DNA of 64,000 bases from Oscillospiraceae bacterium. GTDB lineage: Bacteria > Bacillota > Clostridia > Oscillospirales > Ruminococcaceae. The stretch is from positions 62,001-126,000 of the forward strand of contig JAUNSK010000002.1 of assembly GCA_030539275.1 (NCBI GenBank), written 5' to 3'. Positions 50,885 through 55,798 of the stretch are shown in pieces; within the stretch, counting starts at the first letter, position 1; each line of letters begins with the position of its first letter. The notes under the pieces are model-generated. The model was not told where the DNA came from. It saw only the letters and a list, made by a program, of their open reading frames with translations, and did no database searches. Both the position numbers and the translations under genes were made by a program.

Positions 50885-50990
50885 CTGATATAGTGGAAAG
50901 CTATGTAATTATCACGCTGATGATGGTTGTCACGATGAGTGCTTCTGCCATGAGCATTATTTCTATGCACACTTCAGTTATTATTGTTAA
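50885..50990 (+). pseudogene. Remnant of an MFS transporter gene
   Basis: In one frame this stretch reads DIVESYVIITLMMVVTMSAS and continues AMSIISMHTS; the intact MFS gene at 54539-55798 has SIVSYVVITLMVLITMSAST and MFSISMLTL at about residues 315-340. The DNA is also recognisably similar (for example ATGAGTGCTTC and AAGCTATG are shared). There is no start, no ribosome site and only about 35 codons of similarity, directly after the penicillin-binding protein stop. Best read as a decayed 3' fragment of a second copy. Confidence 0.72.
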
Positions 50991-51003
50991 TGTACACGGT
51001 TCT

Positions 51004-51492
51004 CTATTCATACTCATACTCTGTGATTATGGCCATGAAATCATCATATGATATACATTTAACTCCAATCATTTCGCAAATATTTGGAAGCTGAGCGGAA
51101 TTAGGTTTATATTCTTCTGAAGTAACTACTGTTGCTTCAAGCGTTTTTGCCTTTGCTGCAATATATACGTCAGCTGATGGACGATTAAGTAATATATTTT
51201 TTTGATGTATACTCTCCTGCATTTTTTTGTTTTTAAATATTTTACTAATTGTTATTGATTCGTCATTAGTAGGATATAAAAACATATATTTATGATCATC
51301 AATCCACTTGCTGTTATCTGAATCTTTTGAAAAATGTTTTTTCATCTCATTCATACACTCATCTACTGATACAACCGTTTCATTTAAAATATTTCTTTCT
51401 ATGTTATCCCATACTGTCTTAAACACTAGCCCTTTATGCGGGAGATGATCTAACATTTTTCTTAAAACATTAGTATCTATGACGTATTTCAT
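51004..51492 (-). CDS. PIN-domain protein (DUF4411-like), probable RNase
   Basis: 162 residues. PIN fold signs: VIDTNVLRKML with Asp6, an acidic cluster at SVDECMNEM (Glu45), and Asp108 in RPSADVYIAAKAKTLEATVVT. The layout fits the DUF4411 family, which is usually found beside an XRE-ImmA/IrrE gene, as here. A toxin-like or defence RNase role is inferred. It overlaps the upstream gene by 4 bases. Very AT-rich codon use compared with the surrounding genes. Confidence 0.85.
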   Translation of the reverse strand: MKYVIDTNVLRKMLDHLPHKGLVFKTVWDNIERNILNETVVSVDECMNEMKKHFSKDSDNSKWIDDHKYMFLYPTNDESITISKIFKNKKMQESIHQKNILLNRPSADVYIAAKAKTLEATVVTSEEYKPNSAQLPNICEMIGVKCISYDDFMAIITEYEYE

Positions 51493-52649
51493 TTTTTCGT
51501 CCCCCTATAGAAAACATTCTCTAATTGATGGAGATGATCTACTTTGCTATTTAACATTTCACTGGCTCGAATATTATCTATTCTACCAGAACGAAAACTG
51601 TTAAAAACATCTTTTGTATAATTGTTTCCCAGGTAAGACAGCATTTTATAATAATGATTACCACCACTTTTATGTGTGCCTTTGGACTGTATTCGCAATG
51701 CATCACCATAAAAAGTTTCTTTGAGTGAGTCGTATTCCATATGAGATATGATATTCATCTTTAGAAGTTTAAACATTATAGCTTCTTTACTAACAGAGTA
51801 AAGTGTTGATAAATCACAAATTCTTTGATCATTGAGTTTACATTTTTTTATTTCATTTTCAAAATCAAATGAAGGTATAAGAAATTCATTTGCAAATATG
51901 TCACAAGATCTTTCACTTGAAGTTTGAGCTTTATTAAGATAAGTATAGTAATCATCTCGTATAATATCCGCGCCACTTGTATTAGAAATAAGATGATATA
52001 ACTCATGAAATAATGTAAAATTTTGTCTTGAAAATGACATTGAATTATTAATGATAATAATGGGATAGTGATAATCATTTACACATAAGCCAGACACGCT
52101 ATCGTCTTTAAATGAATCTTTAAATACATATATTCCAACCATATAAAACTTATCTCTATACATTTCAAACACTTCTTTATCGCTAGAAATATTTTTTTGT
52201 GAAGCTATTGAAATGGATAGTAAAGCTCTAAAATATGAACTTAAATGAGTTATATTTTTAGGAAATTCTTCACGTTTTTGTAGAATACTATAACGATCAT
52301 TGCCATACAATTCTTGAAGATTTATTTGATATGCCTTAGCCTTTTCAATTTGTTTAATTACATTTTTACTTAGCATTGATACTACTTCATTTGGTAATGT
52401 ACGCAAATCTGCCTTTACTTGAGGCAAAGCTGGAGGATTTGGGAAAAAAAATATTGCTGACGGCCTCTTAAAAACATCACTTATTTTTTTTAACTTTGCA
52501 TATGTAGGAAAATCCAAACCATTCTCCCAATTACAATATTTAGAAACATCTACTCCAATAGATGACGCTGCTTCTTCACACGACATATTATATCGTTCTC
52601 GTGCCCACTTAATTATTTTACCATTTACACCAGTCAAGACTTCTGACAT
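51489..52649 (-). CDS. XRE-family regulator fused to ImmA/IrrE metallopeptidase
   Basis: 386 residues. N-terminal helix-turn-helix (about 10-60: MSCEEAASSIGVDVSKYCNW) and an ImmA/IrrE-type zinc peptidase domain with FTLFHELYHLIS (His215, Glu216, His219) and the following CDIFANEFLIPSF, which supplies the third ligand. ImmA-type proteins cleave a repressor or antitoxin under stress. With the PIN protein it forms a two-gene module; which part neutralises the other is not known. GGAGGTG lies 9 bases before ATG. A large inverted repeat lies upstream. AT-rich, likely acquired. Confidence 0.88.
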   Translation of the reverse strand: MSEVLTGVNGKIIKWARERYNMSCEEAASSIGVDVSKYCNWENGLDFPTYAKLKKISDVFKRPSAIFFFPNPPALPQVKADLRTLPNEVVSMLSKNVIKQIEKAKAYQINLQELYGNDRYSILQKREEFPKNITHLSSYFRALLSISIASQKNISSDKEVFEMYRDKFYMVGIYVFKDSFKDDSVSGLCVNDYHYPIIIINNSMSFSRQNFTLFHELYHLISNTSGADIIRDDYYTYLNKAQTSSERSCDIFANEFLIPSFDFENEIKKCKLNDQRICDLSTLYSVSKEAIMFKLLKMNIISHMEYDSLKETFYGDALRIQSKGTHKSGGNHYYKMLSYLGNNYTKDVFNSFRSGRIDNIRASEMLNSKVDHLHQLENVFYRGTKK

Positions 52650-52734
52650 ATTAATTCACCTCCAGATTTATTTTTGTATTTTTTTATTATAAAATTCTGT
52701 AGAAGAAATGCGCAATACCATTCGACTATTACAA

Positions 52735-52778
52735 ATATGTAAGGTATTGTTACATATAATTTACAATATCTTACATAT
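52735..52778. promoter_or_regulatory. Inverted repeat upstream of the XRE-ImmA gene (candidate operator)
   Basis: Arms of 16 bases: AATATGTAAGGTATTGT-like left arm (52735-52750) and ACAATATCTTACATAT right arm (52763-52778), one mismatch, 12-base spacer. It lies about 90 bases before the ATG, beyond a TATAAT box near 52690. Likely bound by the XRE domain; inferred. Confidence 0.55.
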
Positions 52779-53262
52779 ATATTTTTTACATAAGGTCAAT
52801 TTTATTATCATTCTTTGCTTGCATACAGTAGCTACTACCCTACTTGCAAACGCATGCTGATTTCTTATATCATCACAGCTTACCTGTCTGAGCCTATTCA
52901 TAAAAACCAGTTATTTGAATTTTAATAGAATCAAAGTCGCTTCATCTCAGTTTATATCTGAAATGGCTGTCATGTATTACTTATCCTCATCTATTTACTT
53001 TTTTAACGCTTATGTGATAACCGGTTCATAAAGTCAAGACGTTTACATCTCATCATTTCCAATTCTGTTATATGTAATATATGACGATTTACACAAAATA
53101 AGTAAGAATTATCTTATTAAAGTATAATTTACTATAATTATATCACGCTTATCTACAAAATACAACAGTTATTAGTATTTCTTTAGAAAGAAAAGGCAAA
53201 TATCATTTACAACAAATTTTCTATAAGCCAACTGTAGTTTGCCATCTATATCACTAAACAAA
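52779..53262. other. Non-coding AT-rich region
   Basis: Nearly 500 bases without a frame of note on either strand. Short AT repeats and a TATAAT-like box near 53123 are visible, but no ribosome site or gene follows. Probably decayed DNA at the edge of the acquired PIN/ImmA module. Confidence 0.55.
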
Positions 53263-53312
53263 AAACAGACAAACACCCACCGATCAACTATCAGTGTTCA
53301 TTTGCCTGTTTC
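53255..53312 (-). terminator. Large hairpin terminator, minus strand
   Basis: Minus strand: outer arms AAACAGGCAAA and TTTGTCTGTTT, inner arms CACTGAT and ATCGGTG, pairs joined by G-T on the minus strand only, then TTTTTTG. It points to a former minus-strand gene just upstream (53380-53670). Confidence 0.6.
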
Positions 53313-53379
53313 GTATAAATATCTGATTTATTTATCTACAGCATTTTTTAAGATCTGTATTCATTTAACCTGTCAGTTA

Positions 53380-53670
53380 TCAATATTTTCCTTTTAAGTA
53401 GAATACTTCACCTATTATTCCTCCATCCCTGCATTTTATAAATTCATCTGCAACTTTATCACTCATCCGATATACTCCACCATCAGAACTCTTACAGCTC
53501 CCCTGCATTTAACCTTCAGAATCTATAATTCTGATACTTACACAGATCATACCGTCTCTCTCTTCCATCCATTTAACTACTCCTTTATTGAAAATTACAT
53601 CCGTCTCTGACCTTTTACCGTCACGGTAACCTCTTAACCCGACATAATTAACCCCCCCGAAGAAAAAAAA
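53380..53670 (-). pseudogene. Probable decayed small gene
   Basis: One minus-strand frame runs from 53670 to a TGA at 53380 with a single internal TAA (53509-53511). Before it the frame reads GVNYVGLRGYRDGKRSETDV and then KGVVKWMEERDGMICVSIRI; after it, MQGSCKSSDGGVYRMSDKV and on to FYLKGKY. There is no good start: a C7 and an A8 run lie at the 5' edge, with a stop in frame. A terminator-like hairpin follows at the right distance. No family recognised; it could also be chance. Confidence 0.35.
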
Positions 53671-53733: not shown

Positions 53734-53787
53734 TTGACAAACATACCCTGCTGTAATATAATATATACAGACCGTTAGTCTGTATAT
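53734..53787 (+). promoter_or_regulatory. Promoter and operator of the TetR gene
   Basis: Consensus -35 TTGACA (53734-53739), 17-base spacer, consensus -10 TATAAT (53757-53762). A perfect 10-base inverted repeat, ATATACAGAC and GTCTGTATAT with spacer CGTTA (53763-53787), covers the expected start of transcription. This is the layout of autorepression by TetR. Confidence 0.85.
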
Positions 53788-54538: not shown

Positions 54539-55798
54539 ATGGAAACAAACAAAATGTTCAGAAGAGATTTTATCATGGTACTTGCAGGACAGATCATTTC
54601 TCTGTTCGGAAATGCAATTCTCAGGTTTGCACTTCCGCTGTATCTGCTGCGTGAAACAAATTCTGCTTCACTTTTCGGAGCTGTTACTGCCTGCTCATTT
54701 ATTCCTATGATAGTATTTTCACTGTTTGGCGGAGTAATAGCTGACAGGGTCAATAAAAGAAATATAATGGTTGGCCTTGACTTCTGTACAGCAGCGGTAA
54801 TATGTATTTTCTATCTGTGTCTTGGAAAGCTGCCGCTTGTACCGCTTATGATCGCAGTACTCATGATACTTTACGGCATATCAGGTGCATATCAGCCTTC
54901 TGTTCAGGCAAGTATCCCACTGCTCACAGATAATGAAGTTCTGATGAAGGCAAATGCACTCGTAAACCTTGTAAGCACTCTGTCAGGTCTGCTTGGTCCT
55001 GTTATCGGAGGTGTTTTATTCGCTTCCTTCGGAATAAATCCTATCCTTTATATCAGTACAGCCTGTTTTATATGTTCAGCTGTAATGGAGATCTTTATAC
55101 ATATTCCATATACAGCACACAAAGAAGATATTTCAGCTTTTAAAATAGTCAGATCTGATATCAGGGAGTGTACTGATTTTCTGAAAAATGACAAGCCTGT
55201 TTTCATATCTGTAATAAGCATTCTCGTATTGTTCAATCTCCTGCTCTCTGCTGCTATGGTTGTAGGAATTCCGATAATTATAGTACAGGTACTTGATCTG
55301 TCTGACGAATATCTTGGATTTACACAGGGTGCTATGGGACTTGGAGGAATAGCCGGCGGTCTGCTGACCGGCATTGTCTCATCAAAACTCAGGATTTCCG
55401 GAAACTATCTGCTGCTTGCAGTCTGTTCTGCAGCTGCACTTATCATGGGACTGTCACTGTTCCCGATTGTCCCTTCTATAGTAAGCTATGTTGTAATTAC
55501 ATTAATGGTACTGATCACTATGAGTGCTTCAACCATGTTCAGCATTTCGATGCTTACACTTGTCCAGCAGCAGACGCCGTCACACCTTCTCGGTAAGATC
55601 ATGGCAGTTATTATGGCAGTCACAAGCTGTTCACAGCCATTAGGCAATGTTTTATACGGACTGCTGTTTGATGCTTTCATAGATATTCCATGGATAATCA
55701 TGATTTTTTCTGCTGTGTCAGCATTTATAGTATCGCTATGCTCAAGAAGAATATTTGCAAGACTTGAAAAAGAGACAGCATCTCAGGAGATTGCCTGA
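54539..55798 (+). CDS. MFS transporter, probable drug or metabolite efflux
   Basis: 419 residues, about 12 membrane segments. N-terminal DFIMVLAGQIISLFGNAILRFALPLYLL and the loop 2-3 motif GGVIADRVNKRNIMV are typical of the macrolide-efflux-like MFS group. The TetR gene before it suggests substrate-induced export. A short decayed copy of its residues 315-340 lies at 50885-50990. Confidence 0.9.
   Translation: METNKMFRRDFIMVLAGQIISLFGNAILRFALPLYLLRETNSASLFGAVTACSFIPMIVFSLFGGVIADRVNKRNIMVGLDFCTAAVICIFYLCLGKLPLVPLMIAVLMILYGISGAYQPSVQASIPLLTDNEVLMKANALVNLVSTLSGLLGPVIGGVLFASFGINPILYISTACFICSAVMEIFIHIPYTAHKEDISAFKIVRSDIRECTDFLKNDKPVFISVISILVLFNLLLSAAMVVGIPIIIVQVLDLSDEYLGFTQGAMGLGGIAGGLLTGIVSSKLRISGNYLLLAVCSAAALIMGLSLFPIVPSIVSYVVITLMVLITMSASTMFSISMLTLVQQQTPSHLLGKIMAVIMAVTSCSQPLGNVLYGLLFDAFIDIPWIIMIFSAVSAFIVSLCSRRIFARLEKETASQEIA

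Follow-up and report, generated by a model that had tools for sequence, protein, structure and literature searches.

A probable VapBC52-type toxin-antitoxin pair with aspartate at the zinc-switch position in an Oscillospiraceae bacterium, and restriction operons around some of its relatives

The gene pair described here lies in a window of 64,000 nucleotides (the whole stretch of DNA analysed) from an Oscillospiraceae bacterium, and consists of an antitoxin/sensor gene followed by a toxin gene (Table 1). Judged from its sequence it is a homologue of VapBC52 (Rv2514c-Rv2515c), though a remote one, and we consider it highly likely that it forms a toxin-antitoxin module of that type, in which release of the toxin would be driven by the peptidase of the antitoxin. 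It is a genuine member of this kind, probably a working one and probably transferred. The type of module is known already and the pair is not new as a toxin-antitoxin pair; it departs from the known VapBC52 in the zinc switch, as do most of its relatives, and, at the level of the family, in a link with Type III restriction.

Table 1. Features of the gene pair and its borders (positions in the window).
Feature	Position	Strand	Basis or detail
Flanking relic, fragment like a portion of the MFS transporter gene (54539-55798); marks the edge of the module and is not part of it	50889..50979	+	tblastn, blastn
Toxin gene, putative DUF4411-family PIN-domain ribonuclease	51004..51492	-	162 aa; Pfam, PDB match, conserved acids
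Overlap of 4 bases, antitoxin stop and toxin start	51489..51492	-	sequence
Antitoxin/sensor gene: N-terminal XRE HTH, M78 (ImmA/IrrE) zinc peptidase, C-terminal domain	51489..52649	-	386 aa
Shine-Dalgarno-like GGGGGA ahead of the toxin start	51500..51505	-	sequence
Asp228 codon, at the position of the VapB52 'cysteine switch' Cys229	51966..51968	-	gapless alignment to 9vzy_A from HExxH
Arg83 codon, DLR motif aligned with FR of VapB52, where VapB52 probably cuts itself	52401..52403	-	alignment, residue tally
Shine-Dalgarno-like GGAGGTG ahead of the antitoxin start	52657..52663	-	sequence
Six TTACA/TGTAA boxes that cover and flank the inverted repeat	52729..52790		sequence scan
16-base inverted repeat with 12-nt loop (52735-52750 / 52763-52778), candidate operator	52735..52778		15/16 pairs

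The toxin matches the Pfam model DUF4411 at 1.5e-21, above its cut-off (the plain PIN model stays under its own), and the DUF4411 chains of PDB entries 9vzy and 9vzz at 5.2e-7 and 1.1e-6. All four putative active-site acids are present, and among 119 distinct PIN proteins with ORFs of at least 140 aa Asp6 is found in 116, Glu49 and Asp108 in 114 each and Glu126 in 112. The toxin has no PADLOC family at E up to 1 and no match in phage records. The antitoxin matches Peptidase_M78 (3.2e-16) and HTH_3 (4.4e-6), both above cut-off, and contains the zinc-peptidase motif HELYH at residues 215-219 together with Glu246. A profile of 55 antitoxin rows aligns its positions 7-378 with 2-385 of VapB52 (9vzy_A) at E 2.2e-64; the single sequence matches the same chain in two pieces at 3.7e-20. 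The domain identities proposed for both proteins in the earlier note therefore stand, and Asp6 and His215 were correctly named there. The same note had described a 4-base overlap of the genes and a base composition richer in AT than that of their neighbours. Both were found: the genes share 51489-51492, and the four 1-kb intervals over 51001-53500, with a GC fraction of 0.287-0.298, are the lowest of 127 (next lowest 0.333), making this the most AT-rich stretch of the window.

Residues of the catalytic site are nearly constant in the family. For the tree and the residue tallies, short ORFs and rows lacking the motif were dropped, so that 127 and 129 rows were kept, respectively; in the 129 distinct antitoxins His215 occurs in 128, Glu216 in 127, and His219, Glu246 and Arg83 in all 129. 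Position 82, ahead of this arginine, is Phe in 95 and Leu in 24, the window antitoxin having Leu. Two relatives have antitoxins without HExxH (HQYLH in L022, YQFAH in L023), a sequence feature that suggests toxin binding without peptidase control in these two; the peptidase would thus not always be needed.

Pairs of this kind have been noted before. Makarova et al. (2009) assigned fusions of COG2856 and Xre that adjoin PIN toxins to predicted toxin-antitoxin systems (passages of PMC2701414). Their gene pair is of the same sort as ours, but in their three-component scheme the protease was proposed to cut a Xre repressor, whereas VapB52 cuts itself. Toxicity of Rv2514c and its rescue by Rv2515c were reported in 2019 (passages of PMC6504116), and VapBC52 was published with structures (PDB 9vzy and 9vzz) in June 2026 (passages of PMC13273310), so that the view of the pair as a little-studied system, taken in the earlier note, is not supported. 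In the passages of the latter paper, VapB52 holds VapC52, which cleaves tRNA, through its N-terminal and C-terminal domains; with ssDNA it removes its own N-terminal domain, which is required for toxin binding, and its HEXXH mutant undergoes no ssDNA-induced self-cleavage (PMC13273310). The trigger-responsive peptidase suggested in the earlier note is supported by this homology, as VapBC52 acts in such a way in vitro. VapC52 overexpression protects Mycobacterium smegmatis from phage D29 and co-expression of the antitoxin removes the protection (passages of PMC13273310), which leaves a defensive role of the native pair uncertain even for VapBC52.

The window pair shares with VapBC52 the DUF4411 PIN toxin and an antitoxin of XRE, M78 and C-terminal domains that can be aligned over nearly its full length; it differs in having Asp228 for the Cys229 zinc switch, LR for FR, and another host. 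Canonical VapBC modules have a small VapB antitoxin with a head of the AbrB, RHH or Phd type, and this assignment was rejected since the antitoxin here is a 386-aa XRE-M78 protein. CapP/CapH of CBASS resembles the pair in its M78 peptidase opened by ssDNA (as given in passages of PMC13273310), but that peptidase has a separate repressor as its target and turns CBASS on, whereas VapB52 unites peptidase and substrate in one polypeptide; identity with CapP/CapH was rejected, the window peptidase and HTH being in a single chain with a PIN partner. The antitoxin of RipAB from pneumococcus (spr1630/spr1629) is likewise an HTH-ImmA protease, but RipA has been proposed to act on the sliding clamp (passages of PMC12795458).

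The comparison with RosmerTA is closer. Its antitoxins are ImmA proteases, often with an HTH, and have varied toxin partners (passages of PMC10440598), and 14 RmrA models of PADLOC match the window antitoxin (5e-19 to 4.1e-5). The pair could accordingly be filed as a RosmerTA system with an RmrA antitoxin and a PIN toxin replacing RmrT, a choice that differs from ours in filing more than in mechanism. The toxin of the RosmerTA system (RmrA/RmrT) in Gordonia phage Kita is of another sort, depolarising and pore-forming (passages of PMC10440598). Against the assignment, the window toxin is without a PADLOC match, the CapP model fits the antitoxin nearly as well (1.3e-18), and the solved homologue over the whole antitoxin length is VapB52. 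We find this assignment possible, if doubtful, and retain the VapBC52 type.

Pairing of the two genes is almost constant among the relatives. Scanning genome contigs with the antitoxin gave 317 relatives, of which the best 80 were kept (the closest 60-64% identical, in Clostridia), and scanning viral contigs gave 29; relatives were also found on plasmids. In 79 of these best 80 of 317 the antitoxin gene is followed by a PIN gene, the one miss (L049) lying at a contig end; in the viral contigs the two genes adjoin in 27 of 29 loci (the misses are L136 and, at a contig end, L138). Some of the loci are near-identical. The toxin start was placed by Asp6, which left out 13 of the 79 loci as not measurable; the distance between the genes is within 20 bases in all 66 measurable loci, and the 4-base overlap recurs in 42 of these 66. 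From this overlap we infer translational coupling of antitoxin and toxin. Searched from the toxin side, DUF4411 occurs in 38 of 398 genomes of the window's phylum (36 above cut-off), and at 34 loci so found (33 distinct places) the partner is present at 29; the misses L028, L029, L030 and L033 have partial domain matches, two of them at contig ends.

This pairing bears on the possibility that the XRE-peptidase is an ImmA/ImmR-like or IrrE-like switch of other genes, with the PIN protein as an accessory RNase and not a growth-stopping toxin. The HTH and M78 domains are indeed those of ImmA/IrrE regulators, the best PHROGs family of the antitoxin is a transcriptional regulator (7.9e-46), and an AlphaFold2 model (mean pLDDT 92.5) has weak Foldseek matches to IrrE/PprI and to a mycobacterial regulator. 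The best Foldseek match is the DNA-sensing peptidase CapP (E 7.9e-4), and 9vzy is absent among the 50 chains listed; phage records hold five antitoxin matches of 22-27% identity. A regulatory operon is nevertheless hard to reconcile with the near-constant PIN partner, the tight spacing and the toxicity of the homologous PIN protein, rescued by its partner (passages of PMC6504116), and we consider it improbable.

The window copy has a penicillin-binding protein (PBP) gene on one side and TetR-MFS genes on the other. It is not nested in a restriction operon, and no known defence gene is among its identified neighbours, so that a defence-island setting is not borne out for this copy. The fragment bordering the toxin gene matches the MFS gene over 27 aa at 67% in tblastn and over 88 nt at 72% in blastn, and is what is left of a transporter that was duplicated or has decayed. 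The TetR gene has at its start a perfect TTGACA-17-TATAAT promoter, followed by an 11-pair palindromic hairpin (53734-53787), possibly the TetR operator; Rfam identified two tRNAs only in the window. The genome contains no second copy at E up to 0.001, this being the only DUF4411 gene found there, and a search of 10 other genomes of the genus did not find the pair. The nearest PBP homologues (five genomes of the genus, 59-63% identical) gave no readable empty site: the other neighbours of the window pair do not lie beside them, bar one weak match (E 0.005), two of the five contigs end just behind the gene, and TetR matches in other genomes are weak, short and no more than 45% identical.

Such surroundings could suit a decayed, non-functional relic, which adjoins an MFS gene fragment and is rare in the genus; but both frames are open and the conserved residues and ribosome-binding sites are intact, and we rejected this very improbable explanation on account of the intact frames. 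They could also suit a plain selfish addiction module, in which the PIN toxin does no more than stabilise its own DNA and the peptidase turns over the antitoxin, with no role in defence. The AT-rich composition, the adjoining fragment, the absence from the 10 other genomes and the occurrence of relatives on plasmids and viral contigs all agree with it, and it is compatible with the toxin-antitoxin part of our preferred explanation. It accounts less well for the relatives that lie beside or inside restriction systems, more commonly than control genes do (see below), and for the fact that the peptidase of the homologue VapB52 is switched on by ssDNA (passages of PMC13273310); on balance, we regard it as rather unlikely.

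Upstream of the pair, the 16-base inverted repeat reported in the earlier note was recovered, with 15 of 16 pairs around the loop, 85 nt from the antitoxin start codon. It is more than chance: when the 351 bp upstream were shuffled 400 times with dinucleotides preserved, no shuffle contained a repeat as good, nor did any reach six TTACA/TGTAA boxes within 72 bp. The same scan over the whole window gave equally good inverted repeats at five other places. The repeat is plausible as a candidate operator. Among the promoter-like matches listed, none lies on the minus strand at 52650-53000. No counterpart was found upstream of the 12 closest relatives at a threshold of net 9 paired bases, a search that covered 158 nt only for L046, included several that start right behind another gene, and would let shorter repeats escape.

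The clearest departure from VapB52 concerns the residue 13 positions past the first His of HExxH. The window antitoxin has no cysteine between HExxH and Glu246, so that the cysteine switch found in VapB52 and CapP is missing and latency may work otherwise. In 129 distinct sequences, a sample mostly chosen by likeness to the window and from which L022 and L023 were left out, the switch position is D in 64, S in 18, F in 13, E in 12, C in 7, I in 6, T in 4 and N in 2, with three single residues. A sample by locus of 83 related antitoxins has Asp or Glu at 228 in 74, cysteine somewhere between HExxH and Glu246 in five and at 228 in none; the published cysteine switch can therefore not be general for the family. 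In the same sample one of Asp232/Asp233 is acidic in 74, and H215, E216, H219, E246 and C249 are invariant, the cysteine lying three residues past the zinc ligand Glu246 in all 83. In a quick, midpoint-rooted tree of 127 rows, the window sequence and 82 others fall on one side of a branch with an SH-aLRT of 99; this side has D in 62, E in 12 and other residues in nine at the switch position, and all seven Cys sequences fall outside it. The 12 rows nearest the window all have Glu.

We suggest tentatively, from these alignments, that the latent zinc is capped by the carboxylate of Asp228; aspartate would be the simplest substitute for the cysteine switch, and activation would then not depend on a thiol. 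In CapP the first cysteine after HExxH lies at +17 (counted by hand), compared with +13 in VapB52. If, as we take it, this +17 cysteine is the switch of CapP, the capping residue may vary in position, and Asp232 or Asp233 could cap the zinc instead of Asp228. A parallel exists in astacins, whose bacterial member myroilysin has a Cys switch where the animal zymogens have Asp (passages of PMC9629494). We found no description of a carboxylate switch in these antitoxins in the open-access literature searched, in a search partly swamped by unrelated matches, and aspartate at the cysteine-switch position is absent from the VapBC52 paper passages (PMC13273310).

The occurrence of the pair with defence genes in other genomes, raised in the earlier note, was confirmed for part of the relatives. 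For the best 80 of 317 genome loci, a longest-ORF rule yielded 71 upstream and 69 downstream neighbours, and 93 genes at least 6.5 kb away served as controls. Among the upstream neighbours 57 of 71 share the strand of the pair, and 36 of these end no more than 100 bp from the open frame of the antitoxin. Of the downstream neighbours, 10 of 69 match Pfam ResIII, vs at most one of 93 controls (25 families listed; Fisher 0.0009, which is not a strict probability since the loci are related and were kept as the best 80 of 317); an N6/N4 methylase is matched by five of 71 upstream neighbours. PADLOC assigned all 10 flanking proteins tested, from seven loci (L060, L063, L094, L102, L108, L109 and L112), to a Type III methylase or restriction enzyme. 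Defence families (HerA, Type I methylase, mad2) occur among the control genes too, so that part of the restriction signal reflects a general defence-island setting.

In nine of these best 80 of 317 loci, from several phyla, the order is that of a Type III restriction operon with the pair inside it: mod, antitoxin, PIN, res. They come from Bacillota (L060), the archaeon Methanothrix (L063), Bipolaricaulota (L094), Ignavibacteria (L102, L109 and L114), Nitrospinota (L108), Gammaproteobacteria (L112) and Deltaproteobacteria (L115). No further gene was called between mod, pair and res in the seven loci of the PADLOC test, and L114 and L115 each have one extra ORF inside the block. The mod gene is in two ORFs in L102 and L108 and a fragment at a contig end in L063, the res gene of L115 is cut by a contig end, and the PIN ORF of L108 has only 70 aa. 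As the mod and res models were built from the nested loci themselves, independent support comes from Pfam, PADLOC and 20 other loci of the window's phylum, hand-picked for room around the pair. One of these 20 (L194, of the Cys group) has the nested order, a restriction or methylase gene immediately precedes the pair in three (L179, L181 and L187), mod and res lie 1.2 kb upstream of it in L193, and 15 have no restriction or methylase gene by the three models used. The nested order is thus absent from 71 of the best 80 of 317 genome loci and from 19 of the 20 further loci. L060 stands apart in the tree, with a res that best fits a different PADLOC family, and L194 belongs to the Cys group; nesting in Type III operons therefore probably arose more than once.

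Other settings were seen as well. The pairs of L045 and L179 lie directly behind a Type I R-like gene, and that of L048 behind an MmeI-like methylase gene. On a conjugative plasmid of Pseudosulfitobacter (L036, 8001-12256) a Swt1-type HEPN gene and a cytosine methylase come after the pair, possibly forming a small defence cluster with it, and another plasmid copy (L038) has a site-specific methylase nearby.

By analogy with VapBC52, the head and C-terminal domain of the window antitoxin would hold the PIN toxin. The peptidase would be opened by single-stranded DNA that arises through damage, restriction or phage replication, and would then cut its own linker, probably close to the conserved Arg83. 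Once released, the toxin would cleave tRNA and stop growth, and the halt may limit a phage. Beyond this analogy we propose that the antitoxin may repress its own promoter at the inverted repeat, and that Asp228, not cysteine, may cap the latent zinc. We judge a role of the pair against phages to be evenly balanced.

The nesting in Type III operons suggests, again by analogy, a restriction guard like PrrC. To our knowledge, the PrrC system has no protease antitoxin. PrrC resembles the relatives of the window pair in that a gene for a tRNA-cutting toxin is embedded in a restriction locus, but its loci are Type IC, a Type I system (passages of PMC12707154), and the window copy is not nested. Type III nesting of this family was not described in the open-access literature searched and is absent from the VapBC52 paper passages (PMC13273310). 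That the wider family, whose large acid-switch clade would include the window pair, has repeatedly been built into restriction operons, mainly Type III mod/res, as a self-contained, ssDNA-triggered guard is a reading we offer with reserve and think somewhat unlikely; it would extend to the window copy only by analogy, as no identified neighbour there is a known defence gene. On this reading, restriction that yields DNA fragments or is overwhelmed would supply the ssDNA on which the antitoxin cleaves itself, and the tRNase would then arrest the cell.

Should the family serve as such a guard, two layers of defence would be joined through one measurable signal, ssDNA, and Type III restriction would gain a counterpart of PrrC. 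Makarova et al. (2012) described immunity loci as carrying suicide genes, apparently without the antitoxins of typical toxin-antitoxin systems (passages of PMC3506569); in contrast, some immunity loci with members of the present family contain a complete toxin-antitoxin pair.
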